This document shows positions 136 to 31,110 of a stretch of 33,421 nucleotides of DNA, piece after piece; within the stretch, counting starts at the first letter, position 1; each line of letters starts with the position of its first letter. The notes beneath the pieces were generated by a model, which worked only from the letters and a program-made list of their open reading frames with translations, had not been told where the DNA came from and did not search any database. Source of the stretch: Polyangiaceae bacterium (GTDB lineage Bacteria; Myxococcota_A; Polyangia; Polyangiales; Polyangiaceae); NCBI GenBank assembly GCA_025353725.1, contig JANXOF010000059.1, positions 1 through 33,421 on the forward strand, read 5' to 3'. A program made the position numbers and the translations under genes.

Positions 136-1511
136 AACAGGCATTCCATCGAATCGCACAACAAGTGACGGAACGCGAACTGGAGGTCGCGCAAGTCTCG
201 CTCGCGCGGGCAGCCGTCGCGCGCTTCAAGCTGTCGACGGACGTGCTTGCCTTCGACACGACCAACTTCGACACGCACATCGCAACGACGACGCCTGGCG
301 AGCTCGCGCGTCGGGGCCACGCAAAGAGCAAACGAAGCGACCTTCGGGTCGTCGGTCTCGGAGTGTTGGTCAGCGAGACCGGACATGTCCCGTTGCTCTA
401 TCGGACGTACGCCGGCAACGGCTCCGACCAGGGAGTGCTCCAATCGTGTCTGGACGGATTGAGCGAGCTGCACGACGCGCTCGACCAAGGCGAGGGACGC
501 AAGCGTCCTGCCCAGCGCACAGTGGTGCGCGACGGCGGATTCTGGAGTCCGCAGCTCGAGCTCGAGCTCGACTTCATCGGCTACTACAGCCTCATTTCGC
601 TGCCGCTCGGGCACAAGGCGGCCACGGCGGCGCTCGCCTTCGCTGCCGGTCGCGGCGCGATGAAGAAGCTGTCCGGAAACCTCGGCGACGTGCGCGCGGC
701 CAGGACACGCATTGTCTTTGGCGACGACGACGATCTCGATCGGACCTTGGTCATCGTCGAGAGCAAGGAGCTGCTCGAAGGCCAGAAGCGTGGCATTGCG
801 GTGGCTCTACAGAAGGCGACCGCAGAGATGGAACGACTCAAACGGCTTGTTGCGGCCGGCCGCATCCGAAGTGCAAGTTTGCAGCTGCGAGTGAACAAGA
901 CGCTGCGGCGCGAGCACCTCTCGAGGTTTGTCGTCGTCGAGATCGGTGGCACCGACAAGGCGCCCACTCTCCGCTGGCATGTCGACGCGGAGAGACGGCG
1001 AACTCTCGAGCAGACGCGACTCGGGCGCCGCGTGCTGTGCACCGATCAACATAGCTGGAGCACCGAGCGCATCGTCCACGCCTTCCGCGGGCAGTGGGGC
1101 GTGGAGGAGCTCTTCCGCCGGGCGAAGAAGGGCGGTGTTGCGCCCTGGGGCCCCTCCTTCCAGCGCGCCGACGGCTCCCTGCGGCTTCACACCTTTGCGA
1201 CCGTCATCGGGCTCATGTTGGTAAGCTTGGCGAGGATCGCGCTCGGCACAGAGGCTTCGGCGCGCGCGATGATGGCAACACTCGCCGGAATCAGCGCGAC
1301 CCTCGTCCGCACGACGACCGGTGGCAGAGGCCGGTGGCCGACAGTGATGCTGCCGCCCGAGCTGACGGCAAAACAGCGCCGCGCCGTAAGGGTCTTCGAG
1401 CTTGCGCGATGGATGCCGTCACTTTCATCATGTATGAACACGCGACCGCTCCGCCTCGCTGGATAGGGCTTCCACCGGGCGCGCGAACAGTTGCCGCGCG
1501 AAAGTAGGGCT
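136..1511 (+). mobile_element. IS1634/IS4-like insertion sequence, probably degraded
   Basis: The element is defined by its transposase. The right limit is set at about 1511 because a minus-strand glycosyltransferase-like reading frame loses its similarity exactly there. The left limit is uncertain: the transposase frame is closed by a TAA at about 135-137, so an N-terminal section seems lost or frameshifted. I found no convincing terminal inverted repeat or target-site duplication, so the coordinates are approximate. Upstream DNA does not continue the interrupted gene, which suggests a deletion or a rearrangement as well as the insertion. Confidence 0.5.
165..1466 (+). CDS. IS1634/IS4-family DDE transposase, N-terminally truncated
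   Basis: The protein resembles IS1634-group transposases of the DDE RNase H-fold type. Visible landmarks are the first catalytic Asp (D31, in AFDTTNFDT), an SK-x-R-x-DL-like stretch around residues 55-60, the YAGNGSD motif near 82-88, the second Asp (D123, in VVRDGGF), and an IS4-type Y-R-E-K block (FRGQWGVEELFRRAK) with E314. Family members are usually about 500-600 aa, so 433 aa with D31 so near the start means that the N-terminal domain is missing. The GTG at 165 is the first start after the TAA at about 135. The codons between them (QAFHRIAQQ) already look like family sequence, which supports a truncated or frameshifted 5' end. Transposition activity is therefore doubtful. Confidence 0.85.
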   Translation: MTERELEVAQVSLARAAVARFKLSTDVLAFDTTNFDTHIATTTPGELARRGHAKSKRSDLRVVGLGVLVSETGHVPLLYRTYAGNGSDQGVLQSCLDGLSELHDALDQGEGRKRPAQRTVVRDGGFWSPQLELELDFIGYYSLISLPLGHKAATAALAFAAGRGAMKKLSGNLGDVRAARTRIVFGDDDDLDRTLVIVESKELLEGQKRGIAVALQKATAEMERLKRLVAAGRIRSASLQLRVNKTLRREHLSRFVVVEIGGTDKAPTLRWHVDAERRRTLEQTRLGRRVLCTDQHSWSTERIVHAFRGQWGVEELFRRAKKGGVAPWGPSFQRADGSLRLHTFATVIGLMLVSLARIALGTEASARAMMATLAGISATLVRTTTGGRGRWPTVMLPPELTAKQRRAVRVFELARWMPSLSSCMNTRPLRLAG

Positions 1512-1996: not shown

Positions 1997-2932
1997 TTAG
2001 CGCGTCGCTATTTCAAGCGTGGTGAAGGCGATGCCTCCGCGCGCGTCGCGAAGGACGGTAAAGACGTGGGTGAGCCTAGACTCGGTGGGCGCCGCCCAAA
2101 CGTTGTCTGTATACGTCTCGAATTCTTCCTCGTTGCGCCCGCTGCGGTCTTGCTCGAACGCCCCAGCGGTTGCGTACCACGACACGCGGAGACTCTCCCG
2201 GCGCGTCGTGAGCGTTTGGCTTTTCACGTCAAACAGCACGTAGGTTTCGGCGGATTCGGGCGGCCACGCGGCGCGCAACACCACACGCGTTCCGGGGTCG
2301 ACAGTGACGCGTGTGTTTTGCCCTAACGCCTCCGAGTTTCGGTCGACACGCACCTCGAGCGGAAGAAGCACGGGGTGCGTATTACGGCGCGCGTCGCGGG
2401 CGTACTGCACGACCACGTCCGCTGGGGCACGAGTGAGATTACACGCGAGCCGGGCGAATCCAAAAGCGACGGCTCCAGCTGCGCCGCGAAGACGAGCGCG
2501 GATAGGCAAGTAGTATCCACCCGTGACATCGGCGTCGCGCGGCCGAACGTCGGCGGACTGCGTTTCCGGTCCAAAGTCGAAACAGCTCGTCGTCGGGACG
2601 ACCGCGCTCGCGCTGGGGCTGTCGTCGACAACGGGGATTACCCCCGTCGTGGCGCATGCCGCACTCACAGCCCCGTTGTCGTTGATCGACTTCGGCGTAG
2701 CGCACAAGGCCCAGGCCGCATGAGGCGCGGAATCTCGGCCCGTTGGCGTGGCGACAAGCAGCGTCGTCGTCACGCGCTCACCGGGCTTGGCCTCGGCCGG
2801 CTCGACGCGTACGGCGAGCACTCGCACGCGATCGACGAGCGACTCGCGCTCCTCGAACTCCGGTTTGCACGACGTTGTGCCGTGCGCCGTCGTCGCCATG
2901 AGCGCAAACCGAAGAACGCCGCGCGGCGTCAT
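1997..2932 (-). CDS. Hypothetical probable lipoprotein, last gene of the envelope operon
   Basis: This 311-aa protein has a basic start (MTPRGVLRF), a weak hydrophobic stretch and TTSC with Cys22. That resembles a lipoprotein signal but lacks the usual Leu at -3, so lipidation is uncertain. The mature part is Thr/Val/Arg-rich, without transmembrane segments, and looks like beta-sandwich periplasmic or surface protein; I recognise no named domain. Its ATG at 2932 overlaps the stop of the upstream receptor gene as ATGA (2929-2932), so it is probably translationally coupled and made with the receptor. By position it may be an accessory surface or periplasmic lipoprotein of the receptor, but that is inference. 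Confidence 0.75.
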   Translation of the reverse strand: MTPRGVLRFALMATTAHGTTSCKPEFEERESLVDRVRVLAVRVEPAEAKPGERVTTTLLVATPTGRDSAPHAAWALCATPKSINDNGAVSAACATTGVIPVVDDSPSASAVVPTTSCFDFGPETQSADVRPRDADVTGGYYLPIRARLRGAAGAVAFGFARLACNLTRAPADVVVQYARDARRNTHPVLLPLEVRVDRNSEALGQNTRVTVDPGTRVVLRAAWPPESAETYVLFDVKSQTLTTRRESLRVSWYATAGAFEQDRSGRNEEEFETYTDNVWAAPTESRLTHVFTVLRDARGGIAFTTLEIATR

Positions 2933-5418
2933 AGCTCGAGCCTCGCCCCGACAACCGCGACCGTGGGTAGCCCTTGAATCGTACGCTGCTCGCGGAAGCT
3001 CGGCGAGTAAACGATCTCTTCCGCATTTGCGCGGTGAGTAGCATTCTGGACGTCTGCGAAGACGAGCATTGTGACGCCCCTCCCAAGGCTAAACAGGCGA
3101 TCGACGCGCACGTCGAGCTGCCAGAAGGCGGGAATGCGGATCGCGTTTTGCGCGCCGAATGCCGGATCGTAGCGGTCCGCGTTGGCGTCGTACGAGCTCC
3201 CTACAACGGGGGTTCGAGGATTTCCCGATGCGGCTCGAAACCGAGCGCCGAAGCTCCACTTCCCCACGGTTTGGCTTGCGACGATCGACACGACGTGCGG
3301 TTGATCGAAGTCGAACGCTCGCCACGCCTCTTCACCTTCGAACCGACGCTCGCTCCGGCTCATGGCATACGAGACCCAGCCAAAGAAGCCATGCCACATC
3401 TCTTGGCGTAAAAGCAGTTGAAGACCGTGACTTCTCCCCTCGCCGTTTTGGTTGAGGGCGCGAGCAAGGCGTGGGTTCGTGAGCTGACTGCGCACGACGA
3501 GATCGCGCATTGTCTTTTGAAACGCAACCACGTCGGCCGACAATGTGGGTGTAATGTGCAGTGATTCGCCGAGCGTCACGTGCGTCGCGCGCTCAAGTGC
3601 GAGGTCGGGCGTCCCGAACACCGCGGAGAGATCTTCAGGTTCGGGAGTCTGGTGGTACGTGCCGTAGGTCGCATAAAACGATACGCGCGGCGTCACCTCC
3701 CATCGAGCTTTGAACCGCGGTGCGATGGCGGTCTCCAGGCGTGAGAAGCCCAAGCCCGGCGCGCGCCCTGCGCGAGGTGTCTTGCGGTCTCCTTCGATGA
3801 GAAACGCATCGGCCCGCACGCCCGGCGTCGCCGTGACGGGACCGAACTTCACGTCGGCGTGGGCATAAGGGCCAACGTTGGTGATCGACGTTCGCCACGA
3901 ATCGGCGGTGTAGTCCGAGCCTGGCGGTTGTCCGAAGACGTTAATGTCGCCTTCGCGGGGCGGCAGAGTGAGAGAGCCCTCACGCTCGAGCGAAGAGAGG
4001 GAGGCAAGCGCGTCGATTCCTGTCGTGAAGGAGAGCGCGGCGGCGAGCCTCGATCGAAGCGAAGCGCGGACGCCGTACTTCGGTCCGCTTGCCGTCAGTC
4101 GAGCGGGTGTTCCGCCAAAGCGCTGAACGAGCTCGCGGCTGTCGATGCCCACGAACGGGGTTATCTCGACCGAGTCTGATGCAGAAGCGCGCGTGTAGCG
4201 GAGGTACGCGCGCCAGAAAGATGTCTTCTGAACCTCGCTCCGTGTGCTGGCCGGATCGGTCGAAACGACGCTTCGCGTAAGGTCGTCTGCTGCGCCGAGG
4301 ACGACAGCGTCGAGGGCTTCGCCCCCGCGGAGATCGAGTGTGGCTTTGACCTGTCCGTCGCGGTAGCGAGGAATAGGAAAGACCTCACTGACGTCGCGAA
4401 CGCCCGATGCCGCGACGATTCGGTCGAGCCAGCTCTGTCGGACGGCCACAGCCATGCGCGCGCGCTTTGACAGGTCCGTCGACACGAGTGCCGCGGCATC
4501 GAGTGTGTCCGCGCTCACGAGACCGTGCGTCCCCGAAGAAAGCTTACGTGTCTCGACTCGGACAAGCCCGCCGAGGCCTCGTCCGTAGTCCGAACCGAAG
4601 CCTCCGGCGACCAGATCGACGCTCGAGACGAGGTCTCCTTGCAGAACCGAGCGAAGCCCGCTCCCGTGATAAAGCGAAGGAATATCGACGCCGTCGACGT
4701 AAATTCGCGTGTCGCGTGGGGCTGAGCCCCAGACGACGATTTGGCCTGACGCCATCGCGGGCCGAGAAATGCCCGGGAGGTTCTGAACCACTTTAAGAAC
4801 GTCGCCCTGCGTGCCTGCGACCTTCCGCGCTTGCTCGGCGCGAAGGGTTACCTGGTTCGCTTCGCGGCCTGAGCGGGGGCGTCCGACGATCTCGATCGTG
4901 TCGACAGTGGCGACCTTTTTTTCTTCCGCCGACGGGACGCGAGCGGGCTCCCGGGCGCGTTCTTCGAGTTCTTCGTTCGGGGCGCGCTCGCTCTCCGTTT
5001 TGGCGGGCGGCGCCACGCGGGAAAGGACGAACGCGTACCGATAGGTAAGTTTTACGGGCGCGGGGAGGCCATCGACCTCGGTCGGTGAGAAGCGAAATTG
5101 CCTTGCCGCAGTCACGGCCGCGGCGTCGAAGTCGGGCGCGGCGGTTCGCGCGACGACGACATCGACGACAGAGCCTTCGGCGTCTATCTCGATAGTGAGT
5201 AGAACGACCCCTTCAACCAAGGCGGCTTTTTTCTCGGGCGGATACTCGGCTTCGACAAAGGTTGTCAGGATTGGAGCTTTCGTGACTTCGCGCCGTGCCG
5301 GAGTTCCGCCGACGTCACTACCGCGCGGCTGGGCGTGCGAAGCGCGCAGCGTAAACGTGGTGTGCATCGCGAACGCGAAGGCCACGCCACGGCCGAACGT
5401 GCGCCGCATGAACGCCAT
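2929..5418 (-). CDS. TonB C-terminal domain fused to a TonB-dependent outer-membrane receptor
   Basis: This 829-aa protein starts with a signal peptide (about residues 1-30). Residues about 50-132 form a TonB C-terminal-like domain, with a VEAEYP motif followed by VVLLTIEIDAEGSV and ending in the AARQFRFSP and YRYAFVL strands. A charged linker rich in Glu, Arg and Pro (about 135-170) follows. Next come a receptor plug (about 170-290), with DTIEIVGR, the NLPGISRP turn, RIYVDGVDIP and GGFGSDYGRGLGG, and a beta-barrel of about 530 residues. Receptors of this type import bulky or scarce nutrients across the outer membrane with energy from TonB-ExbBD. Here a TonB-like domain lies at the receptor's own N-terminus in the periplasm, without the usual TonB membrane anchor, so it cannot replace a normal TonB. 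It may act as a signalling or docking module. The start ATG overlaps the previous stop by one base (5418). The substrate is unknown. Confidence 0.9.
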   Translation of the reverse strand: MAFMRRTFGRGVAFAFAMHTTFTLRASHAQPRGSDVGGTPARREVTKAPILTTFVEAEYPPEKKAALVEGVVLLTIEIDAEGSVVDVVVARTAAPDFDAAAVTAARQFRFSPTEVDGLPAPVKLTYRYAFVLSRVAPPAKTESERAPNEELEERAREPARVPSAEEKKVATVDTIEIVGRPRSGREANQVTLRAEQARKVAGTQGDVLKVVQNLPGISRPAMASGQIVVWGSAPRDTRIYVDGVDIPSLYHGSGLRSVLQGDLVSSVDLVAGGFGSDYGRGLGGLVRVETRKLSSGTHGLVSADTLDAAALVSTDLSKRARMAVAVRQSWLDRIVAASGVRDVSEVFPIPRYRDGQVKATLDLRGGEALDAVVLGAADDLTRSVVSTDPASTRSEVQKTSFWRAYLRYTRASASDSVEITPFVGIDSRELVQRFGGTPARLTASGPKYGVRASLRSRLAAALSFTTGIDALASLSSLEREGSLTLPPREGDINVFGQPPGSDYTADSWRTSITNVGPYAHADVKFGPVTATPGVRADAFLIEGDRKTPRAGRAPGLGFSRLETAIAPRFKARWEVTPRVSFYATYGTYHQTPEPEDLSAVFGTPDLALERATHVTLGESLHITPTLSADVVAFQKTMRDLVVRSQLTNPRLARALNQNGEGRSHGLQLLLRQEMWHGFFGWVSYAMSRSERRFEGEEAWRAFDFDQPHVVSIVASQTVGKWSFGARFRAASGNPRTPVVGSSYDANADRYDPAFGAQNAIRIPAFWQLDVRVDRLFSLGRGVTMLVFADVQNATHRANAEEIVYSPSFREQRTIQGLPTVAVVGARLEL

Positions 5419-6329
5419 CAGGGGACGTCGAATTCAAGCGCCCGTACGCCCGCGCCGCGATCGTGGGCATAGGTCGTATCGGCATTCGCCGACGTTCCCT
5501 CCGCGGCGCCGACGCTCACGTCGTCGACGAACGCCTCCAGGCGCCAGTGTGCGAACGCGTCACGACACAGCGCAAACGTATCGACCCGCGCCACGTAGTG
5601 CCCCGAAGGCGGCGCGTCGGCGTAAACGACGTTTTCGGCGCTCCGCCCATCGGGAACGCATTGCGCGTTCGAGTCGAAGTCGAGAATGCCGCCAGGGTGC
5701 AGTGTGCCCGGAGGCTCGGTCGCAGCACCTGCCGGGCGTTCGTACGAGTTGATGTTGCGCTTCCAAATCTCGACGCCTTTCGGGTCGACGAGATGCAAGT
5801 CGAGGTCCGCCTGCGTGTCCCACGAGAGCGCGACGACGAGACGTCCTTGCGGCCGCGAGCGAACCACGCCGTCAACCTCGAGAACTCTCGTGAACGCGGC
5901 GCCGAACCTCCCCTGGCTGTCGATCGCGCGCGCGGTAAACGAGCGACGACCCTTCGAGATCGCACGGGAGAACGCGACTTCCGCGGAGAACGTCGGAAAG
6001 CCAGGCGCCGAAACGTCGGGGGCGCCTGCCGCGACGACCCAGAAGCCGACGTCTTGGTCGAGAGCGAGGGCCACCGACGTGGTGGACGCCGCGGCGACGC
6101 CCGAACACGAGCGACCGACGCTTCCCGGCTTCACCGTGGGAGAGAGCGTAAGCGCACGCACGGCCGGGCCGTCTTCGCTTGAGGGCATTTCACTGCGAAA
6201 AAACTGGCCGCCCGTCACGCGCACCGTTGCGTCGAGCGCGAGGTCTGGAGTGACGGAAGCGTCGCACGACGCGAGCAGGCCGAGCGAGGCGACGGCGCAT
6301 CGGACGACGCGTTGCGGGAGGCGCCTCAA
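5418..6329 (-). CDS. Lipoprotein with a DUF2135/YfaP-like domain, TTG start
   Basis: I place the start at the TTG at 6329-6327, which overlaps the porin stop as TTGA (6326-6329) and gives 303 aa with a good lipoprotein signal (RRLPQRVVRCAVASLGLLASC, Cys22). The longer open frame up to 6578 is antisense-like and Arg-rich and is rejected. The C-terminal half carries LVVALSWDTQADLDLHLVDP, a GILDFDSN stretch and SAENVVYADAPPSGHYVARV. That pattern resembles the DUF2135/YfaP-type beta-sandwich, whose aspartates may bind metal. No enzyme motif is seen. It lies between the porin and the receptor in the operon, so a role as a surface-exposed or periplasmic binding lipoprotein of the same system is likely. 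This is inference from context. Confidence 0.75.
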   Translation of the reverse strand: MRRLPQRVVRCAVASLGLLASCDASVTPDLALDATVRVTGGQFFRSEMPSSEDGPAVRALTLSPTVKPGSVGRSCSGVAAASTTSVALALDQDVGFWVVAAGAPDVSAPGFPTFSAEVAFSRAISKGRRSFTARAIDSQGRFGAAFTRVLEVDGVVRSRPQGRLVVALSWDTQADLDLHLVDPKGVEIWKRNINSYERPAGAATEPPGTLHPGGILDFDSNAQCVPDGRSAENVVYADAPPSGHYVARVDTFALCRDAFAHWRLEAFVDDVSVGAAEGTSANADTTYAHDRGAGVRALEFDVP

Positions 6330-7762
6330 AATCCCACCACGGCGCGAAGCATAAAGGAGTCGTCCGCGAGTGTCGTGGGAGCGCCCGACACGTCTCTGCC
6401 GAGGGCGTTCTTGCGATGGTCGTACTCGGCGATGATCCGCGCCGCCTTCCAGCGCGCCGTCGCCATGAATGTCCACGTGGAGACGCTTGCGTCTTTCGGG
6501 ACCACGGTGAAGGGACGCGCGTCTCTCGCGTCGGCATCGGGATCCAACGTGTCGTAGCGCACGCCGACGATCGCCCATCGCGTCAGCTCCTGCGTACCGC
6601 TAAAGACCCAGCCAAGTTCGCGCAAATCGCGCGAGGCGCCCACCGGATCGGCCACCAAGGTGCCACGCGCGAGGTTCGACGCTCGGACAAGCTCTCCGCG
6701 GAGTGTGAGCTCACCGACGTCGCGGATGGGGAGAACGAGGCGCATGTCAGCGCCGAGTGCGAACCTTTGAAACCCCTGCGATGGCGTCGCTGGCGACCCC
6801 GAGAGCGCTTGCAGCTCGGTCTGCTGAACGAGGCCGTCTTCGTTCTGATCCCGCCACACGAGTTGATCTTTCGACCCCGCGACTCCCTTGTGAAAGCCGC
6901 GGCCCGTGAGGCCTGAGAAACCAGCGTCAAGGCGAATGCCCCTTGCTATAGGCGTCGAGCTCCCGAGTCGAAACACGAGGTCTTTGCTTTTGTTCGGGTC
7001 GCGCCCTGGAAACGTGGCTTCGCCTATGGGGTCGCCGTTTACGATCGCGAGCGCGTAGTTGAGGAACTTGTACCCGCCAAGAATGCGGAGGCCGAGGTCG
7101 TACGACTGCGGAAAGAGCTCGTTTGACATCGACGCTCGTTCGAGGAAAGGCCTCACGTTTTCTCGCTCAGGAACGTCACCCCCGAACGGTGTCATGAGTA
7201 GGCCGGCCGAGATCATAAAGAAGGCGCCGTTCGTTGTTTGCCGCGCCACACCCGAGGGACCGAGGTAGGGCGTCGCTTCAGGCCACTTGACCGAAACCTC
7301 GGCGTTCCAAGGCCGAACCTGCGGCCCGCGAATGGTATTCGCGTCGAGCTCGAAGGCGCCGTGCAAGAGCCCGTAGTCGCGCTCGAGTCTGATCCGCGCA
7401 CGCCGTAAGACAAAACGGTCCTCATTGAGCGGCTCACCCGTCGACGAGTTCACCTCATTTTGAGACGAGCTTCGAAACGCCACCCAATCGACGTGAACGA
7501 AGCCGCTTACAATGGTCGCCTCAGCAGGATTGTGAACCCCCGCTTGCCGCCGCTCGATCTCGGCCACGCGCGCTTCGAGGTCTGCGGACGCTAGCCTGTG
7601 TCGCTCGGATTCGGGCGCGTCAAGCGCGTCGGGCCCGCGCGCAAAGACCGCCGGGTTGACCGACCCTGCGGCTGAAATGTCTTCCGCGTGCGCCGACGTG
7701 ACCAACCCTGCCACGGCGGAGGCCGACAACAGGCCGACAGCAACACGGGCGATTTCGAGCAC
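6326..7762 (-). CDS. OprO/OprP-like (phosphate-selective porin family) outer-membrane porin
   Basis: This 478-aa protein has a signal peptide (cleavage after about A26, SAHA), a short coiled-coil segment (ADLEARVAEIERRQ, about 59-73) and a barrel of alternating strands that ends in Phe, the usual C-terminal signature for outer-membrane insertion. The layout of coiled coil, then barrel with FVLRRARIRLERDYG and FELDANTIRGPQ, matches the phosphate-selective porin O/P family. The N-terminal helix of such porins helps trimerisation and cell-wall contact. Members conduct phosphate, polyphosphate or other anions, and the name does not prove phosphate here. The gene follows the small lipoprotein gene after a 73-base gap and is overlapped by the next gene. 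With a PstS-like protein in the same operon, anion uptake is a reasonable but untested reading. Confidence 0.8.
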   Translation of the reverse strand: MLEIARVAVGLLSASAVAGLVTSAHAEDISAAGSVNPAVFARGPDALDAPESERHRLASADLEARVAEIERRQAGVHNPAEATIVSGFVHVDWVAFRSSSQNEVNSSTGEPLNEDRFVLRRARIRLERDYGLLHGAFELDANTIRGPQVRPWNAEVSVKWPEATPYLGPSGVARQTTNGAFFMISAGLLMTPFGGDVPERENVRPFLERASMSNELFPQSYDLGLRILGGYKFLNYALAIVNGDPIGEATFPGRDPNKSKDLVFRLGSSTPIARGIRLDAGFSGLTGRGFHKGVAGSKDQLVWRDQNEDGLVQQTELQALSGSPATPSQGFQRFALGADMRLVLPIRDVGELTLRGELVRASNLARGTLVADPVGASRDLRELGWVFSGTQELTRWAIVGVRYDTLDPDADARDARPFTVVPKDASVSTWTFMATARWKAARIIAEYDHRKNALGRDVSGAPTTLADDSFMLRAVVGF

Positions 7763-7835
7763 GGTGGAGGATGCTACTTCAACGACGAAAAAGAAGTCAG
7801 CCCGCGCGTCACCGCCTTGAAGGCATCCACTTCCT

Positions 7836-8177
7836 CTACGGGAGCGGCGGAAGCCCGCCGTCGGGGCTCAGGAGCGGCAGCACGGGGGTCTTCGCGATTT
7901 TCACGGCGTTCGTGCAGCCGTTAATGATCTCTTCGGAGGTTTTTGGATTCTGCACGCAATCGTTAGCAGCTCCGTCAGCGCTCGTGCCAGGGCCGCCATC
8001 TTGTGTGGTAGGCGGGTTGATGCGCCCACCGCTATCGACAACGGGAATCGGGTCTTTGACAGCACTCGTATTCGTGTCACACGCCGCCAGCGTCGCGGTC
8101 GCGGCGAGCCCGACGAGGAAGAGGACCGTGAGGGGGACCGTGTTGCGCGTCAGCTTTCGTGTTGTCAGATTCATCAT
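7836..8177 (-). CDS. Small lipoprotein of the envelope operon
   Basis: This is a 113-aa protein with a clear lipoprotein signal: basic N-terminus, hydrophobic core (VPLTVLFLVGLAATAT) and lipobox LAAC with Cys33. The mature part has a Pro/Gly/Asp-rich flexible stretch, then a compact conserved-looking end with two further cysteines (NDCVQNP and INGCTNA) and a Pro/Leu-rich tail. I chose the first of two adjacent ATG codons (8177) because it forms an ATGA overlap with the stop of the binding-protein gene (8174-8177). The second ATG at 8174 would be one codon shorter. I do not know its function. Its place between a periplasmic binding protein and a porin suggests a tether or accessory factor of the same machinery. 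Confidence 0.75.
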   Translation of the reverse strand: MMNLTTRKLTRNTVPLTVLFLVGLAATATLAACDTNTSAVKDPIPVVDSGGRINPPTTQDGGPGTSADGAANDCVQNPKTSEEIINGCTNAVKIAKTPVLPLLSPDGGLPPLP

Positions 8178-9421
8178 TGCACCTCGCAGAAGCCACGTCG
8201 GCACTTCCCCGCCCCGCACACGCCATCGCTCGAGCAGGTTGCGCACGACGTCGCGCCCTGCGGAACCTTCGACTCGTAGTAGCAAGCGCACGACTCCGGC
8301 GGAGCGTACAGCGAGAGAGGTCCGCCATCGAACGAGCGCTGAACCCCCATGGCGCACTCGGGAACAAGTCCACTCGCGATGACCTGGTCAAGGCCACTTA
8401 CGTCGGCATCCACACGTGCCCCGAGCACCAAGTCGACAATTCGCTGGACGTTCAGATCAACGGCCTTGCCGTTGCCGCCGACGCGAGTGAGGTAGGGCGT
8501 CGGCGCCCATGGCAAGTAGTGACCGTCACGCACATTTTGTTTGTCAAAGCTCGTCGCGCTCTTGTCAGGATAATACGCGTAGCGCTGGCCAAAGCTCTTG
8601 AACGCGAGAAGCTTCACCTTGTCGCGCGCGGCATCGTAAATCTCAGTCCCCATGATTCCTATCGCCGCTTCGGGAGCTACCGAACTTGCGACGGCATTCA
8701 GTATCTCGGTTGACGTGTTGCCTGTCGGAACGGTCCCTTTGAGCTGCGACGCCTTTAGCCCGATGGCCGCAGCGCAGGTGAGCGCGGTGCTGGCGGTCGG
8801 CCCGCGGCTGTACCGCTGCCCTTGGTCGAGCCAGGGTATGGCTTGACCGGTTCCGCCTGGAAAACCGTAGGCAAAGTAGCCCTCCTCAGCCGTGATGGCG
8901 ACCTGCGAACTCGCGAGCGGAGCGATAAAACCGTACGCTTGAACGGGTCCCTTGATCTCCGTCAGGTCGACGGGTCTTGGTGTCGGCAAGGTGGTGCAAC
9001 TCGACAAGAACGTGGCACCGATTCCGAGCCCGAGAACGTTTCCGCCCACGTCCGCATCGCACACGGGCGCGGGTGACCGTGGGGTCCACGCCGGATCCTC
9101 TGCCGCCGAAGGAATGTACTTGATGGGGATCGAATCGTTCACCATCGCGTTGGGCGTAATCATGTCAAGCGCGAGGTCGCACGTGCGCTTGTTCTTGTAG
9201 ACGATGCGGACGGGCGAAGCCGCGTTGACGAGGCGTTCGCCCAGCCGCTTCACGAGCGGTTCTTGCGTGTCGCCAGCCTCGATGAAGACGATGGGCTGCG
9301 TACCCAGCGTGGTGCAAGCAGGCGCCGCACGAGCGGGCTTCGCTGCGGTCGCGAAAGTGCCAATGAGTGCGGTGAAGGTAGCGAACACCAAACGAATGGG
9401 CCGTCGTTCTTCGATGTGCAT
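8174..9421 (-). CDS. PstS-like periplasmic substrate-binding protein with a Cys-rich tail
   Basis: This protein is about 415 aa from the ATG at 9421, which is followed directly by an export signal (IRLVFATFTALIGTFATAAKPARA, cleavage near residue 33). The frame is open further upstream, but that part is Arg-rich and lies over the regulatory spacer. The body looks like a PstS/PBP-like type II binding protein: QPIVFIEAGDTQEPLV at the start, SQVAITAEEGYFAYGF in the middle, then GIMGTEIYDAARDKVKLLAF and NVRDGHYLPW. The last 40 residues have about nine cysteines (CACYYES, CATCSSDGVCGAGKCRRGFC), like a small disulfide-rich module. The gene heads the operon. No PstC, PstA or PstB gene is in the window, so its partner across the inner membrane is unknown. 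Phosphate as ligand is inferred only from fold similarity. Confidence 0.75.
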   Translation of the reverse strand: MHIEERRPIRLVFATFTALIGTFATAAKPARAAPACTTLGTQPIVFIEAGDTQEPLVKRLGERLVNAASPVRIVYKNKRTCDLALDMITPNAMVNDSIPIKYIPSAAEDPAWTPRSPAPVCDADVGGNVLGLGIGATFLSSCTTLPTPRPVDLTEIKGPVQAYGFIAPLASSQVAITAEEGYFAYGFPGGTGQAIPWLDQGQRYSRGPTASTALTCAAAIGLKASQLKGTVPTGNTSTEILNAVASSVAPEAAIGIMGTEIYDAARDKVKLLAFKSFGQRYAYYPDKSATSFDKQNVRDGHYLPWAPTPYLTRVGGNGKAVDLNVQRIVDLVLGARVDADVSGLDQVIASGLVPECAMGVQRSFDGGPLSLYAPPESCACYYESKVPQGATSCATCSSDGVCGAGKCRRGFCEVQ

Positions 9422-9652
9422 GGTGGCAAGTGTCGCACTGGACCTTGACGCAGGGCTAGGCATTTGGGGCGCCGTGCGGTCGCGAAACGTGACCGCTCTG
9501 CAACAGGAGATTCCAGTGCAGAGTGCGACGAGGCCTGGCGCACTTCGCCCGGTGCCGTGGGCGTTTTGAGTTCTTGCCTCTTGCGAGTTCGGAAAAGCCT
9601 CTTTAGCGTCTTCGTTCGGCAGAGCTTCGCCTCTGTCAAAGAGGATGAACCT
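9422..9652. promoter_or_regulatory. Divergent control region with several inverted repeats
   Basis: This 231-base spacer separates the minus-strand envelope operon from the plus-strand cNMP-domain gene. It contains a near-perfect palindrome at 9476-9496 (arms GCGGTCGCG and CGTGACCGC, 3-base centre AAA, one mismatch). Next to it is an inverted repeat CTCTGCA (9496-9502) and TGCAGAG (9517-9523). GTCGCACT (9432-9439) is also repeated inverted at 9522-9529, and CACTGGA (9436-9442) at 9512-9518. The cluster looks like operator sites, possibly with a large stem. No consensus promoter could be assigned with confidence, and no pho-box-like direct repeat was seen. Confidence 0.5.
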
Positions 9653-10519
9653 GTGAAGATCGAACTCTCCCTGCAATCTCTTCCGCTGTTTCAAGGCATC
9701 TCGGAGGCGCGCCTCCGCGAATTCGTTGCGGCCTGTCGACTCGTGACACGTCGGGCGGGCGTCACCCTTTTTGACGTGGGCGACATCGCGACGCACTTTC
9801 AGTTGCTTGTCAGTGGAGAAGTCTCAGTCGAGGAATCTCCTGCGACGCGCTTCGAGCTTCGTCCCCTCGCGCCACTCGGCGAGCTCGGCGCGCTCACCGG
9901 AATCCCCCGCAGTACGAAGGCCACGGCGACGTCGGACCTCGAGCTCCTCGAGGTGCCGCTCAGCGATTTGCGCGGCTTCTTCGACGCGAATGCCTCGACG
10001 GGCCTCGCGTTCTACAAGAATCTTCTCTCACTGGTAAGCGGGAAGGTTCGCAGCGACCGAAGGCGCCTGTCGGAAATGCGTGCAAACCTTATCGACACGC
10101 AGAAGGCGATGAAACGGATGCGCGAAGAGGTTCTTTCTGCACCCGAAACGCCGCTCTCGAAGCCGCTCTTCGAATCGCTCGACCGGCTCATCTCGAAAAA
10201 TAGGCGTGCGCACTACCGCGTTTCGCCAACACCAGGGTACTCCGCCCAGGTCCGGCTCGAGAGCGGCCACCTCGTGCGGATCTTAGAGCTTAGCGAAGGC
10301 TACCTCAAGGTCGAAGGGAAGGCCTCGGACCTCACGCGAGACCCAAGCTACTGGGCAGGCGTGCTCGTGATGCCCACCGGTGAGATCCTCGTCAGCGGGA
10401 CGGTCGTCCGCGAAGACGCGGATGCCGTGGTGGTGAAACTCGATACGCTGGTCGACGAGTTCAAAACCAAGCTCGACGATTACAGCGTACGTCTGCAGCT
10501 GCTCGATTACGTCGTCTAG
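9653..10519 (+). CDS. Cyclic-nucleotide-binding domain protein with a PilZ-like C-terminus
   Basis: From the GTG at 9653, preceded by AAAGAGGA, this gene encodes 288 aa. Residues about 8-125 form a CAP-type cyclic-nucleotide-binding domain. The phosphate-binding cassette is well kept (PLGELGALTGIPRST, with the Arg that normally contacts the cyclic phosphate). A basic, helical linker (SDRRRLSEMRANLIDTQKAMKRMREEV) follows. The end (about 185-288) starts with NRRAHYRV and contains LELSEGYLKV, which recalls the RxxxR and (D/N)xSxxG motifs of PilZ but lacks the key acidic or Asn residue, so c-di-GMP binding is uncertain. There is no DNA-binding helix-turn-helix. I read it as a cytoplasmic second-messenger sensor, divergent from the envelope operon. 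Regulation of that operon is only suggested by position. Confidence 0.8.
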   Translation: MKIELSLQSLPLFQGISEARLREFVAACRLVTRRAGVTLFDVGDIATHFQLLVSGEVSVEESPATRFELRPLAPLGELGALTGIPRSTKATATSDLELLEVPLSDLRGFFDANASTGLAFYKNLLSLVSGKVRSDRRRLSEMRANLIDTQKAMKRMREEVLSAPETPLSKPLFESLDRLISKNRRAHYRVSPTPGYSAQVRLESGHLVRILELSEGYLKVEGKASDLTRDPSYWAGVLVMPTGEILVSGTVVREDADAVVVKLDTLVDEFKTKLDDYSVRLQLLDYVV

Positions 10520-26307: not shown

Positions 26308-27867
26308 ATGCTCCGCCCCATGGGTGGCTCGTCGACCGTAATCATCGGAGCAGGATTCGGCGGACTTGCGGCCGCGATTGAACTCGCCGCGCGCGGCGAA
26401 TCGGTCACCGTCATCGAGCGCGAACCCGTGCCCGGCGGCAAGGCCCGCGCCATCGATGTCGCTGGCGGATCGATTGACGTAGGGCCCACGGTTCTCACGA
26501 TGCGCTGGGTCTTCGACGCCCTTTTTGCGACCGCGGGCAAACGCCTCGACGACGCAATCACGCTTGTTCCCTCTTCGATCCTCGCTCGTCACGCCTTTGG
26601 CGACGGTTCCCGGCTCGACTTGTTTTCCGAGGTCGAACGGTCGGCCGAAGCTATCGCAACGCTCGCAGGCGAGCGTGAGGCCAAAGCGTATCGCCAGTTC
26701 GCCGCACAGGGCGCCGCGATTGCCGCCGCCGTGCGCGGTCCGTTCCTCGAATCGGAGCGCCCGTCCCTCGGTGCCCTGCTCGGCCAAAGCGCAAAACTCG
26801 GCCTCCGCACCCTTGCGCAGATCGACGCTCACCGCACCATGTGGAAGGCGCTTTCGTCGACCTTTAGAGACGACCGCCTGCGTGCACTCTTTAGTCGCTA
26901 CGCGACCTACGTCGGGTCGTCGCCGTTGGAGGCGCCTGCGACGCTCAACCTTATCGCCCACGTCGAGCGCGAAGGCGTTGCCGTCGTCGAGGGCGGCATG
27001 GCAAAGCTGGCGAGCAAGCTGGCTGAACTTGCGCGAGAGCTTGGCGTGACGTTTCGCTATGCGACGCGCGCCATCGAGGTGACGATGAGCATGGGCCGCG
27101 CCTCCGGCGTCATCGTGGAGGGCGAGGCTGGCGCGCGTGAATGGGTCGCCGCTTCGGCCGTCATCGTCAACGCGGACGTGTCGATTGTCGCCGGCGGTCA
27201 CCTCGGCGACGTCGCGCGCGGCGCCGTACGAGCCTCGAGGCCCGGACGTCGGTCGCTCTCCGCTGTAACTTGGGCCATCGTCGGACGCGCAACGGGTTTT
27301 CCGCTCGCGCATCATAACGTGTTCTTTTCGGATGATTATAAGGCTGAGCACATCGCCCTCTTTGGCAAACGCCGCTTGGCGGATGACGCCACGGTTTACG
27401 TTTGCGCTCAAGACCGTCCTGCGCAAGAAGGGTCGTTGCCTGATCGGGACGAGCGGCTCTTCGTGATTGTAAACGCGCCAGCCACAGCCGATACGTCCCC
27501 CCTCAGCAGTGAAGAGGTCGAACGATGCGAACGCAGCATGTTCTCGAGGCTCTCGAAAGCGGGACTCCAGATCGCGCCGCGAGCCATGGTCGTGACCACG
27601 CCGACGTCCTTCGAGCGCCTCGCGCCGGGGACGGGCGGAGCGCTCTATGGGGAAGCCGCGCACGGAGCCTTTTCGGCTCTCCAGCGCCCCGAGTCGCAGA
27701 CGAAGCTCCCCGGCCTGTTCCTAGCTGGCGGGAGCATCCACCCGGGTCCTGGCGTGCCGATGGCCGCATTGAGCGGGAAAACCGCAGCAAAAGCGACCTT
27801 GGCGTACCTCGGTTCGACACGCCGATCCACGACCGCGGCTATGGCTGGTTCTACATCGACGGGGTGA
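26308..27867 (+). CDS. crtD: CrtD-like carotenoid desaturase (phytoene desaturase family)
   Basis: This 519-aa FAD enzyme belongs to the CrtI/CrtD family. The FAD-binding site is IIGAGFGGLAAAIELAARG near the start, and the C-terminal FAD motif is GLFLAGGSIHPGPGVPMAALSG. The middle stretch SRYATYVGSSPLEAPATLNLIAHVE is of the CrtD type, which introduces the 3,4 double bond into 1-hydroxycarotenoids. It could also be another carotenoid desaturase or oxidase. It is first of a plus-strand run with crtC, whose GTG overlaps the stop as GTGA (27864-27867). An ATG at 26320 is an alternative start. After about residue 500 the sequence (TRRSTTAAMAGSTSTG) looks like non-family read-through over the crtC region. 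Confidence 0.85.
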   Translation: MLRPMGGSSTVIIGAGFGGLAAAIELAARGESVTVIEREPVPGGKARAIDVAGGSIDVGPTVLTMRWVFDALFATAGKRLDDAITLVPSSILARHAFGDGSRLDLFSEVERSAEAIATLAGEREAKAYRQFAAQGAAIAAAVRGPFLESERPSLGALLGQSAKLGLRTLAQIDAHRTMWKALSSTFRDDRLRALFSRYATYVGSSPLEAPATLNLIAHVEREGVAVVEGGMAKLASKLAELARELGVTFRYATRAIEVTMSMGRASGVIVEGEAGAREWVAASAVIVNADVSIVAGGHLGDVARGAVRASRPGRRSLSAVTWAIVGRATGFPLAHHNVFFSDDYKAEHIALFGKRRLADDATVYVCAQDRPAQEGSLPDRDERLFVIVNAPATADTSPLSSEEVERCERSMFSRLSKAGLQIAPRAMVVTTPTSFERLAPGTGGALYGEAAHGAFSALQRPESQTKLPGLFLAGGSIHPGPGVPMAALSGKTAAKATLAYLGSTRRSTTAAMAGSTSTG

Positions 27868-28733
27868 GTGACGACGGAGCGTCGTCGATCGTGTTGATCG
27901 CAATGCTCGGCAACGTCTTCTCACCGCGATGGGTACGGGCGCGTCACCATGATCCCGCAGCGTCATCGCTCGACTTCTCTACGTTCAACGTCTCACTTCG
28001 CTCGGGCAGCCGGACTTGCTGGGCGCTCACGGAAAGAGCGCGGTCGTCCGTCTCGCGCACCCAGGACCATCTCGCTATCGGCGCTAGCGCCATGAAGTGG
28101 CACGGTGAAAGGCTCGTCGTGCGGATTGACGAACGTAGCGCACCGTGGGGTTCACCCGTTCGAGGCACGGTCAAACTCACTCCGCTCTCGGTGAGCGACC
28201 TGAGCGTCCCGCTGGACCCACGAGGCGTCCACACGTGGTCGCCGCGCATTCCACTTGCGCGCGTCGAGGTCGACTTCGAAGAACCGCGCGTCAAGTTCGA
28301 GGGAACAGGTTACTTCGACCTCAACCGTGGCTCCGCGCCGCTCGAAGACACGTTTGCGTCGTGGTCGTGGTCACGGACGTCGCACGGCGACGAAGCGACG
28401 ATTGCCTACGATGTGGCATTGCGCGACGGCTCGGCACGCGCGCGCGCGTTCAAGGTCGCGCTCGGAGGTGAGCTCCAGTCGATCGATGCCGGGGTGAGTG
28501 TTGATCTTCCTTCCACGCGATTCGGACTCTCGCGCACGGGTCGAAGTTCGTCGACGCCGATGGCGATTGTACGAACGCTCGAAGACGGGCCCTTCTACGC
28601 GCGCTCTCTCGTTTCGACCACGAGCGCCGGACGACAAGCTTTCGGGATGCACGAGACCGTGTCGCTTGACCGATTCAGATCACCGTGGGTGCGGTTTCTT
28701 GTCCCGTTCCGGATGCGTGTAGAGGCGGCGTGA
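27864..28733 (+). CDS. crtC: CrtC-like carotenoid 1,2-hydratase
   Basis: Family marks are IAMLGNVFSPRWVRAR, TCWALTERA and GTGYFDLNRGSAPLEDTFASW, which correspond to the IAFxGSVFSP, WAMTERG and GxGYxDxNxG blocks of hydroxyneurosporene synthase. This enzyme adds water across the terminal double bond of an acyclic carotenoid end. The GTG at 27864 gives 289 aa and overlaps the crtD stop as GTGA, like the other junctions of the cluster. Yet the same frame is open upstream and reads PRFDTPIHDRGYGWFYIDG, which looks like the conserved N-terminal strand of the family. No ATG, GTG or TTG lies between 27528 and 27863, so a longer protein would need ATG 27525, deep inside crtD, or ATT 27768. The start is unresolved. 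The gene ends at a GTGA overlap with the glycosyltransferase gene. Confidence 0.85.
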   Translation: MSDDGASSIVLIAMLGNVFSPRWVRARHHDPAASSLDFSTFNVSLRSGSRTCWALTERARSSVSRTQDHLAIGASAMKWHGERLVVRIDERSAPWGSPVRGTVKLTPLSVSDLSVPLDPRGVHTWSPRIPLARVEVDFEEPRVKFEGTGYFDLNRGSAPLEDTFASWSWSRTSHGDEATIAYDVALRDGSARARAFKVALGGELQSIDAGVSVDLPSTRFGLSRTGRSSSTPMAIVRTLEDGPFYARSLVSTTSAGRQAFGMHETVSLDRFRSPWVRFLVPFRMRVEAA

Positions 28734-30598
28734 TCGTTCGCTTTTTGGTGGCGACTTGGCTAGCCGTTTACGCTGTAGCTGCGACTCTCGCGATCGTTCG
28801 GGCCTTTCGAAGAAACGGCTCCAATCCTAGCGATGGCGACGCGAGGTTTTTGCTCCTAAGGCCGCTCGCGGGGCTCGAGCCGGGCCTGGCTGAACGACTG
28901 CTAGAGACGGGCGGCGCGCAAGAAGTCGTGTTTGCCGTGGGAACGCTCGAAGACCTCGCGGCTCCCGTGGCGTGCGCGGCGAGCGCAGAGCTCCGGCGAC
29001 GAGGCATCGAAGCGCGCGTGGTCGTAACCGGCGCGCGCGGTCCAAACCACAAAGTCGACCAGCTCGCACGCGCACTCGCAGCCACGGTACGCGTCGATCC
29101 GTACCCTGTAGTCGTGGTAGCGGACTCCGACGTCGACCTGGCAGGAGACGCGGCCGTGCGCCTCGTTGGGTCGATGGGCACGGCGGATGCGGCATGGGCG
29201 CCGCCCGTGGAGCGCGGTGACGTAGCGACCTGGGGCGACCGCGCATCACACGCTGTTTTGGACGCGTCTCTTCATTCGTTTCCGCTGCTCGCGAGCATCG
29301 ACCACGACGGTTTCGTAGGGAAGTTCTTCGCCGTTCGACGGGAGGCGTTGGATCGAATCGGTGGGTTTGAGGTCCTCAAAAACTTCCTCGGTGAGGATGT
29401 AGAGCTTGCGCGGCGCCTGCGCCAGATCGGCGCACGCATCGTCGTCGCACCTTTTGTGGCCCGCGCCATGGCATCGGGTCGAACGTTTCCAAGCGTCGTT
29501 GCCCGGTATTCGCGGTGGCTCATGGTCGTTCGCGCGCAGCGACCCCATCTGCTTGCGTCGTATCCTTTTCTCCTCGCGACATCGCCTCTCTTCGCGACGC
29601 TGCTTGCGCTGAGCTTGGCGTTGCAGGACCCTATACTTGCCGTGCACGCCACGTTCGCACTCCTTGTTCGCCTCGCCGTAGCGTGTGCGTCGCGCGCGCT
29701 TGCGGGACTGCGACTCGCTCCAGCTGAGGCGTTCGCGCAGTCTTTTCTTGGCGACGCGACGCTGCTCGCGGCGCTGGTACGTTCCCTTCCTAAGCGCGAG
29801 GTAACCTGGCGCGGGAGGCGTTTGCTACTTTCACGCGGTGGAGTGCTGTCAACCGCCGAGCATGCGAACGAGAAGCTTGGTCGCGAGGTCGCCGAAGAGG
29901 CTCGACCGTTTCGACAACACGCAGGTGAATCCAAGAGGAACCACGTCGACGCGGCTCTCAAGGCCGGCGTCAATGCGAGCGAGCTCGCGCTCAATGCCCC
30001 GTCGTTGACCTTGAACTCCCTCGAGAATGTCGCGTTGGGCGGCAAGCGGATGACCGAAAGAGATCCACAAATCCGGAAATTCAGTGGCTCCGAAGACGTA
30101 GCGGAGGCCGACCGGCAACACGACGGCGCGCTTGCTCACGCGCGCGATTTGGGCGGCGCCCGGCTTGAGGTCGAGGACACCGAACGGCGACCCTTCGCGA
30201 CCTTCGGGGAACACCCAAAGCGTTCGCCTTTTCTGGACGAGAAGCTTCGCGGCGTGACGAATCGCCCGCGCTCCAGAAGCGGGATTGTCGAGGTCCACGC
30301 CGAAGGCTCCGACGCGTCTGAAAAAGGGAGCCTTTCGCAGGTTCGAAGCGTCCATGAGGGCGTAGCCGTCAGAGTCGAGAAGGAGCTCGGACACGTAAAG
30401 TGCGACGAGGGCATCCCACCACGTGGTGTGGTTCGCCACGAGAAGCACGGGCGCTTCGGCCACGGCGGCGCGAGCGGTCTCGAGGCCGCCGACGAGGACG
30501 CGACCGAAGGTTTTCCCGATGCGACCACGGGCGTGCCGTGCGAACCACGCGTTGAACCATCGACTTTTCGCCGCTTCGATCATGGAGACCTCTCGTGA
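28730..30598 (+). CDS. Membrane glycosyltransferase (GT2/GT21, ceramide-glucosyltransferase-like)
   Basis: The GTG at 28730 overlaps the crtC stop. The protein starts with a membrane helix (FLVATWLAVYAVAATLAIV). A GT-A domain follows with NHKVDQL (about 106-112), the metal-binding DSDVDL (132-137), the GEDVELARRL acid motif (221-230) and RYSRWLMVVR (259-268, a Q/RxxRW-like signature), then C-terminal helices (about 276-345). This is the pattern of ceramide glucosyltransferase or HpnI-type enzymes; in a carotenoid cluster it may add sugar to a hydroxycarotenoid. Family similarity ends near 29848. From there the frame stays open for 250 codons exactly antisense to the acyltransferase gene, codon against codon, with no stop until 30598, which overlaps crtZ as GTGA. 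The tail looks like non-family sequence. Confidence 0.75.
   Translation: MIVRFLVATWLAVYAVAATLAIVRAFRRNGSNPSDGDARFLLLRPLAGLEPGLAERLLETGGAQEVVFAVGTLEDLAAPVACAASAELRRRGIEARVVVTGARGPNHKVDQLARALAATVRVDPYPVVVVADSDVDLAGDAAVRLVGSMGTADAAWAPPVERGDVATWGDRASHAVLDASLHSFPLLASIDHDGFVGKFFAVRREALDRIGGFEVLKNFLGEDVELARRLRQIGARIVVAPFVARAMASGRTFPSVVARYSRWLMVVRAQRPHLLASYPFLLATSPLFATLLALSLALQDPILAVHATFALLVRLAVACASRALAGLRLAPAEAFAQSFLGDATLLAALVRSLPKREVTWRGRRLLLSRGGVLSTAEHANEKLGREVAEEARPFRQHAGESKRNHVDAALKAGVNASELALNAPSLTLNSLENVALGGKRMTERDPQIRKFSGSEDVAEADRQHDGALAHARDLGGARLEVEDTERRPFATFGEHPKRSPFLDEKLRGVTNRPRSRSGIVEVHAEGSDASEKGSLSQVRSVHEGVAVRVEKELGHVKCDEGIPPRGVVRHEKHGRFGHGGASGLEAADEDATEGFPDATTGVPCEPRVEPSTFRRFDHGDLS
29849..30583 (-). 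CDS. PlsC-like acyltransferase, antisense within the glycosyltransferase frame
   Basis: This 244-aa protein has the glycerolphosphate acyltransferase motif NHTTWWD (N51, H52, D57; the H-x4-D catalytic pair) and the substrate motif FPEGRE (125-130), spaced as in 1-acylglycerol-3-phosphate acyltransferases. A GAFGVDLDN segment lies between them. An acyl chain from acyl-CoA or acyl-ACP would be moved to a hydroxyl, which in this cluster could be a sugar on a carotenoid (glycoside ester), but lipid synthesis is the default. The ATG at 30583 has GAGAGG five bases upstream, reading on the minus strand. The start is 11 bases from the crtZ start, back to back. The whole gene lies inside the open frame of the plus-strand glycosyltransferase, an unusual arrangement. 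Confidence 0.88.
   Translation of the reverse strand: MIEAAKSRWFNAWFARHARGRIGKTFGRVLVGGLETARAAVAEAPVLLVANHTTWWDALVALYVSELLLDSDGYALMDASNLRKAPFFRRVGAFGVDLDNPASGARAIRHAAKLLVQKRRTLWVFPEGREGSPFGVLDLKPGAAQIARVSKRAVVLPVGLRYVFGATEFPDLWISFGHPLAAQRDILEGVQGQRRGIERELARIDAGLESRVDVVPLGFTCVLSKRSSLFGDLATKLLVRMLGG
30584..30594. promoter_or_regulatory. Shared ribosome-binding segment for two divergent starts
   Basis: The 11 bases GGAGACCTCTC lie between the acyltransferase ATG (minus) and the crtZ GTG (plus). On the plus strand GGAGA is six bases before GTG. On the minus strand the complement gives GAGAGG five bases before ATG. One short stretch can thus serve both starts. No room remains for separate promoters. 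Confidence 0.5.
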
Positions 30599-31110
30599 AC
30601 GCGATCACAGTTGCCGCTGTGGGTACGGCCGTCGGTCTCACGGTCGCGGTAGCCATGGAACCCTGGGCACGGTTTCTTCATGGCAGTGTCTGGCACGGGG
30701 CGTTGTGGAGCGTGCACCGCTCGCATCACACAAGGCGAAAGGGGCGTTTCGAGACGAACGATGTGCTCTCGGCGACCCACGCTCCCGTCGCTGCGCTGCT
30801 TATCATGATTGGTTGTAATCTGCACGGTCTCGGAGCCGCCGTCACGCTCGGATTCGGGGCTGGAATGACCGCCTTTGGGGTCGCCTACGTTGTTTTGCAT
30901 GATGGCCTGGTCCACGGTCGCCTTCCCGTAACGTTCCTGAACCGCCTCCACTTTTTTCGCCGCATACGCGACGCGCACGCGGTTCATCACGCGCGCGGCT
31001 CCGCGCCCTTCGGGTTTTTCTCGGGCCCACGCGAGCTCACGCGCGCGCGTTCACGCCAGCAACTCGCGCGCGAGTCGTATGCCCCAGCGCGTCGCCGCAA
31101 CGGGGCCTAG
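30595..31110 (+). CDS. crtZ: CrtZ-type carotenoid hydroxylase
   Basis: This 171-aa protein matches the CrtZ family of membrane di-iron carotenoid 3-hydroxylases. The His clusters are in order: HG-x3-H (H29, H34), HRSHH (41-45), HDGLVH (102-107) and HAVHH (128-132). Around them are RRKGRFETNDV and SAPFGFFSG. Hydrophobic segments surround the clusters (about 5-25, 63-85, 88-102). The enzyme would put a hydroxyl on a beta-ring, consistent with a lycopene cyclase nearby. Its GTG overlaps the glycosyltransferase stop (GTGA, 30595-30598). The last 60 bases overlap the convergent cyclase gene. The C-terminal tail after about residue 150 is Arg-rich and shows no family similarity. Confidence 0.88.
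   Translation: MNAITVAAVGTAVGLTVAVAMEPWARFLHGSVWHGALWSVHRSHHTRRKGRFETNDVLSATHAPVAALLIMIGCNLHGLGAAVTLGFGAGMTAFGVAYVVLHDGLVHGRLPVTFLNRLHFFRRIRDAHAVHHARGSAPFGFFSGPRELTRARSRQQLARESYAPARRRNGA

Follow-up and report, generated by a model that had tools for sequence, protein, structure and literature searches.

The window, that is, the whole 33,421-nucleotide stretch analyzed here, is contig C27 of genome G000 (6.6 Mb, 98 contigs). Six minus-strand open reading frames were read from its sequence between positions 1997 and 9421 (Table 1), and their arrangement was as claimed in the initial annotation: genes 1 and 2 and genes 5 and 6 overlap at ATGA, genes 3 and 4 overlap at TTGA, genes 4 and 5 share one base, and a single gap separates genes 2 and 3. 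The lipoprotein character of the gene 2, 4, and 6 products was read from their N termini by eye. It had also been claimed that the operon lacks an inner-membrane transporter gene, and no ABC-type or other inner-membrane transporter gene was found in the open reading frame list of the 33,421-nucleotide window.

Table 1. Features of the window. Positions are counted from the first letter of the window.
Feature	Position	Strand	Start codon and length	Description
Gene 1	9421-8174	-	ATG, 415 aa	Secreted PstS-fold protein with Cys-rich C-terminal tail; candidate oxyanion-binding protein
Gene 2	8177-7836	-	ATG, 113 aa	Small probable lipoprotein; lipobox by eye
Gap between genes 2 and 3	7835-7763	-		73 bases; sole spacing within the operon
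Gene 3	7762-6326	-	GTG, 478 aa	16-strand porin, nearest to OprP/OprO by fold
Gene 4	6329-5418	-	TTG, 303 aa	Probable lipoprotein without family assignment
Gene 5	5418-2929	-	ATG, 829 aa	TonB-dependent receptor with periplasmic N-terminal TonB_C (residues 57-132), plug, and barrel
Gene 6	2932-1997	-	ATG, 311 aa	Probable lipoprotein of a nameless family; conserved final gene of the operon
Transposase-like gene	165-1466	+		IS4-type by eye; downstream of gene 6
Gene divergent from gene 1	9572-10519	+		cNMP-binding domain
Biosynthetic gene run	26308-33386			Carotenoid/terpenoid biosynthesis-like by eye

Searches of single window proteins against Pfam and NCBIfam returned matches for the gene 5 product alone. 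The gene 1 protein matched 0 families at E ≤ 1, the PstS and ModA models included, and searches of the window genome with PF12849 and PF12727 recovered ordinary PstS-type proteins and missed gene 1. No match in the PDB was found by phmmer for the gene 1 protein, the gene 3 protein, or the HTH–PBP_like regulator described below, and gene 1 profiles gave only weak PstS matches there (E 0.018 or worse). The AlphaFold2 model of the gene 1 protein (mean pLDDT 91.5) nevertheless has a PstS-type periplasmic-binding fold, as had been supposed, with Streptococcus pneumoniae PstS (4lat) as the best solved match (Z 25.5, rmsd 2.2, 251 residues) against Z scores of 16.4 and below for ModA structures. Plain PstS membership was rejected, since the fold is accompanied neither by a model match nor by a phosphate-type pocket. 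The Cys-rich tail of gene 1 is conserved.

The gene 3 model (mean pLDDT 80.5) consists of an N-terminal helix followed by sixteen long strands, and its nearest solved porins are OprP (Z 28.6) and OprO (Z 28.3), with other porins at 25.0 or less. No match to Porin_O_P (PF07396) was seen for the window protein itself; 14 of 30 family members matched at E ≤ 0.1 (best 5.8e-7), and the paralogue in L063, a second copy of the operon in the window genome, matched over the cut-off (7.6e-8), so that the proposed OprO/P-like identity is borne out by fold and by relatives. The reading of gene 5 as a fusion of a TonB domain with a receptor was likewise upheld by Pfam, with TonB_C, plug (PF07715, 1.8e-7), and a barrel of the 22-strand type (PF00593, 7.5e-24), the latter two over their cut-offs. 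The best NCBIfam match of gene 5 was MxcH (NF038079, residues 49–303), and membership in that family was rejected, as 87.8 bits lies far under the cut-off of 925. The claim that gene 4 is DUF2135-like did not survive: the window protein matched 0 families, and PF09906 was found in 1 of 30 family members at E 0.077. A weak match to PPC was seen in 6 of 30 gene 4 family members (best 3.6e-4). Profiles of genes 3 and 4 gave nothing convincing against the PDB, and no family match was found for gene 6.

A single-sequence query found relatives of gene 1 in 56 of the 144 genomes from its order, and a profile search found them in 54 of the 377 from its phylum. A species-wide scan (one genome per species, 84,980 species) gave 125 relatives; the best 80 of these 125 were examined, and their titles name myxobacteria (Minicystis, Sorangium, Nannocystis, Polyangium, Pyxidicoccus, Hyalangium, Kofleriaceae, Sandaracinaceae, and others) except where an unplaced label like proteobacterium or bacterium is given. 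Loci, all chosen by gene 1, were classified with purpose-built HMMs, and 120 loci were reduced to 98 non-redundant ones by collapsing those with gene 1 sequences of >95% identity over at least 80% of length. A nine-gene architecture, in which exbB-exbD-tonB lies between genes 4 and 5, was found at 29 of the 98 loci, with 23 complete (gene 2 undetected in 3). The six-gene architecture, in which genes 4 and 5 are not separated by exb genes, was found at 25 loci, 21 of which are complete in the order of the window; one of these has a split gene 3 and one has exbB-exbD upstream. The other 44 loci include 35 bare pairs of gene 2 and gene 1. Whatever remains of the 98 loci consists of single genes and of sets that are partial or truncated where a contig ends. 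All three types occur in the window genome, as the window copy, the nine-gene copy L063 (= G000:C15), and the pair L062.

The reciprocal search gave the same picture from the other end of the operon: 44 of 58 strong gene 6 matches (E ≤ 1e-52; 144 genomes of the order) lie ~2–9 kb downstream of a gene 1 on the same strand. Ten of the remaining 14 were inspected, and in 7 more of the operon is present up to the point where the contig stops, while 2 are lone gene 6 sequences at a contig end and 1 (L253) is a lone match. The six genes are thus a conserved unit across Myxococcota. A chance row of genes is ruled out by the conserved order, and the suggestion that the products form one machine is supported by the gene order, which was checked across myxobacterial genomes and is kept well beyond close relatives, across the phylum. 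The window operon is the six-gene form without a motor of its own; many relatives carry exbB-exbD-tonB. At 17 loci, all without the porin (L056, L060, L096, L110, and L122 among them), a gene 2-like domain is fused ahead of gene 1 in one open reading frame, which hints that both proteins act together. Porin-less pairs of gene 2 and gene 1 (L062, L083, L094, L101, L107, and others) share kinase and TPR/PEGA neighbours, perhaps reflecting a signalling use of the binding protein. In Polyangium sp. y55x31 (L038/L121), genes 1, 5, and 6 are kept, genes 2–4 are absent, and gene 5 begins at the end of gene 1.

Binding pockets were compared by alignment with PstS, and trees were built from gene 1 proteins with fragments of 250 residues or fewer excluded (alignment A3 also omits L089, which has a stop codon). 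The window clade was recovered in both of the quick gene 1 trees. A phosphate-type pattern was defined as Asp at window position 136 (SDxF loop) together with S-G-T at 210–212 (RxxxSGT loop); the window protein has D51, T52, Q53, A136, R206, A210, S211, and T212. The pattern was absent from all 27 window-clade proteins, each of which instead has D-T-Q at 51–53 and retains Arg206, and from all 6 proteins of a sulfate-linked clade. It was present in 34 of 41 proteins from loci of the other class and in 15 of 27 from nine-gene loci; among additional nine-gene proteins it was seen in both basal ones and in 4 of the 5 later ones. The sulfate-linked proteins, namely L259, L266, and L267, which were read at places with sbp-cys genes, and L268, L269, and L272, group in a single clade (FastTree support 0.966) that has a pocket of its own. 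Loss of the pocket Asp is no proof against phosphate, because the ordinary PstS of the window genome also lacks it, with SSRP at that place. These patterns suggest ligand swapping within the family, whose copies carry pockets of three kinds: phosphate-type, sulfate-linked, and the third one of the window clade.

The clades also differ in gene 5. TonB_C was found in 24 of 24 nine-gene loci that have the gene and in the window copy; within the window clade it was seen at 5 of 24 loci, those nearest the window. The other 19 of the 24 have no visible TonB_C, contig ends or frame breaks interrupting some of them, and energy coupling may therefore differ within the clade. In the window genome, ExbB-ExbD-TonB is encoded in the nine-gene copy L063.

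Transporter genes were found beside several relatives. At L079 (G022:C78, the same place as L067), pstB, pstS, and pstC, all over their NCBIfam cut-offs, and a second permease gene lie upstream of gene 1 on the same strand, and this gene 1 has the phosphate-type pocket. Genes of the sbp-cysT-cysW-cysA type lie downstream of gene 6 on the same strand at L249 (G118) and L256 (G121) and divergent from gene 1 at L266 (G090) and L267 (G114, where sbp-cysT-cysW was seen); the link from gene 1 to the sbp-cys genes in G118 joins two contigs by inference. An inspection of ~40 nine-gene places thus showed neighbouring sbp-cys genes in 4 genomes and, in a single genome, pst genes upstream of gene 1; most of these places had no ABC genes in view. 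At L146 (the same place as L048), the genes after a truncated gene 1 are an AA-kinase gene, modA (above the TIGR01256 cut-off), modB, and one resembling modC. The AA-kinase gene is one that we take to be molybdenum-storage-protein-like. On this metagenome contig (L048:4488-6353), gene 1 is without the Cys-rich tail and continues in frame into an AA-kinase-like piece, through a deletion or an assembly join. Within the window clade, modA lies 2.2 kb upstream at L155, on the opposite strand. No mod genes were found near the window operon; the window genome encodes ModB over the cut-off at G000:C13, and ModB is common, 8 of 14 control genomes having a match above the cut-off.

An HTH–PBP_like regulator gene adjoins gene 1, in the same direction or divergently, at 9 of the 24 window-clade loci that have at least 1.2 kb upstream (23 and the window), compared with 0 of 27 nine-gene loci and 0 of 39 other loci (0 of 66 outside the window clade). 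Regulators of the HTH_17 type were noted at L037, L088, L092, L097, and L121 and of the XRE type at L130, L134, L139, and L145. No such regulator was found in the window genome; the place that it occupies in relatives holds the divergent gene with a cNMP-binding domain (Table 1). The best long NCBIfam match of the sensor part is the C-terminal part of the molybdopterin-biosynthesis fusion NF011068, below the cut-off. COG1910 is, we presume, the cluster that matches this sensor part. It is termed a periplasmic molybdate-binding protein in passages of PMC4774088, passages that do not describe an operon of the window type. By homology, molybdate was assigned as the putative ligand of the PBP_like regulators. 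Elsewhere, 17 of 30 XRE-type regulators lie within 1.5 kb of ModA/ModB matches, 1 lies as close to gene 1, and 12 lie near neither; for the HTH_17 type, the corresponding counts are 2, 7, and 7 of 16, the ModA/ModB matches in both cases coming from one tblastn query each and some being weak. At L182, L199, and L202, HTH–PBP_like regulators stand beside porin- or receptor-like genes (by eye), which are perhaps other outer-membrane molybdate genes.

A scan for Pho boxes upstream of gene 1 showed no class to be enriched, and sites matching at least 11 of 14 positions were found at 2 of 25 window-clade loci (shuffled 1.4%). One of these loci, L155, has two overlapping Pho-box-like sites (L155:6642-6670), the better of which matches 13 of 14 positions and is the sole site of such quality in the 1.59 Mb of locus sequence. 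This locus, if no other, may respond to phosphate. The best site in the window matches 10 of 14. Neither the missing Pho box nor the missing pocket Asp is decisive, because the window genome's own PstS shows neither (8 of 14 upstream of its gene).

Taken together, neighbours, regulators, and pocket, the three lines that bear on the identity of the anion, agree in part, and the window clade appears to be linked mainly to molybdate genes. The operon is best explained as a module that acquires an inorganic oxyanion at the outer membrane. For the window copy, molybdate or tungstate is the most likely ligand and a ModABC importer encoded elsewhere in the genome the most likely partner. We give this reading a probability of about 0.5, lowered from about 0.6 because of the Pho-box pair at L155. 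Gene order, folds, pocket differences, and neighbours come from computation; transport, its direction, the ligand, energy coupling, and complex formation are what we infer from them. In the proposed mechanism, the OprP-like porin (gene 3) and the TonB-dependent receptor (gene 5) would move the anion through the outer membrane, powered by ExbB-ExbD-TonB, and the lipoproteins encoded by genes 2, 4, and 6 would assemble the complex. The secreted PstS-fold protein, held by the gene 2 lipoprotein, would capture the anion and hand it over to a cognate inner-membrane ABC importer. Having lost exbB-exbD-tonB, the window copy would depend on a borrowed motor, and the nine-gene copy L063 is a candidate source of it. 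The earlier supposition that the operon must borrow a partner fits these observations, with exbB-exbD-tonB inside the operons of relatives, pst or sbp-cys genes beside them, and both ModB and the nine-gene copy in the window genome.

The main rival, which we regard as unlikely, is that the same module takes up phosphate (or pyrophosphate) in the window copy and that the pocket changes tune affinity only. The PstS fold of gene 1, the OprP/OprO-like porin, the pst genes at L079, the Pho-box-like pair in a member of the window clade, and the existence of PstS proteins without the Asp all point this way. They are set against a phosphate-type pattern seen in 0 of 27 proteins of the clade, molybdate-type regulators at 9 of 24 of its loci, and Pho-box counts that show no clade-wide enrichment, with 10 of 14 at best in the window. 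Phosphate had been offered as a guess in the initial annotation, and the guess is weakened by the lost pocket and the mostly molybdate-linked clade, although L155 still speaks for it.

It is improbable that the operon is instead a sensing device, in which binding protein and receptor report oxyanion availability without transport. The porin-less pairs of gene 2 and gene 1 do adjoin a Ser/Thr-kinase cluster (30 of 44 loci) and TPR/PEGA genes (24 of 44), but a porin and a TonB system are present in the window and nine-gene operons, which contain no kinase or sigma/anti-sigma gene, and the partners seen beside them are ABC importers. Equally little weight is given to a metallophore importer, in which gene 5 would take up a chelate (e.g. 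iron or molybdate bound to a catecholate) and the porin and binding protein would be accessories, since the best NCBIfam match of gene 5 is indeed MxcH, the myxochelin receptor, but at 87.8 of 925 bits, and the PstS fold of gene 1, the oxyanion ABC neighbours, and a window whose listed open reading frames include no siderophore genes (by reading) all argue against it.

The cargo known for TonB-dependent uptake is organic or chelated and either large or scarce. If the oxyanion reading is correct, this family, with one outer-membrane set paired with phosphate, sulfate, and molybdate importers, would extend such uptake to simple inorganic anions and offer a natural series of pockets for specificity. 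More broadly, and with confidence somewhat short of even, Myxococcota may possess a dedicated TonB-energized outer-membrane importer for free inorganic oxyanions, a complex of porin, receptor, lipoproteins, and binding protein, its pocket re-tuned for phosphate, sulfate, and molybdate or tungstate and each form paired with the matching ABC importer, the window being the molybdate form that shares the motor of its sister copy. No description of such a system was found in full-text searches of PMC, a scope outside which most subscription journals fall; passages of PMC545781, which treats ModE/modABC of delta-proteobacteria, do not include the window operon.

Three known systems invite comparison. 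With PstSCAB and OprP/OprO, the module shares the PstS fold of gene 1 (Z 25.5), a porin nearest to OprP (Z 28.6), and, beside one relative, the pst genes themselves. The window operon differs in having no permease or ATPase and in adding a TonB-dependent receptor and three probable lipoproteins, and the phosphate-type pocket is missing from the window clade. Like MxcH-type receptors, gene 5 has TonB_C, plug, and barrel; unlike them, it falls far below the MxcH cut-off, lies in an operon with a porin and a binding protein, and has oxyanion transporters as the neighbours of its relatives. The likeness to ModABC and its regulators is that gene 1 adjoins PBP_like regulators where modA stands elsewhere, whereas gene 1 matches no ModA model, its fold is nearer to PstS (Z 25.5 versus 16.4), and the operon is an outer-membrane set.
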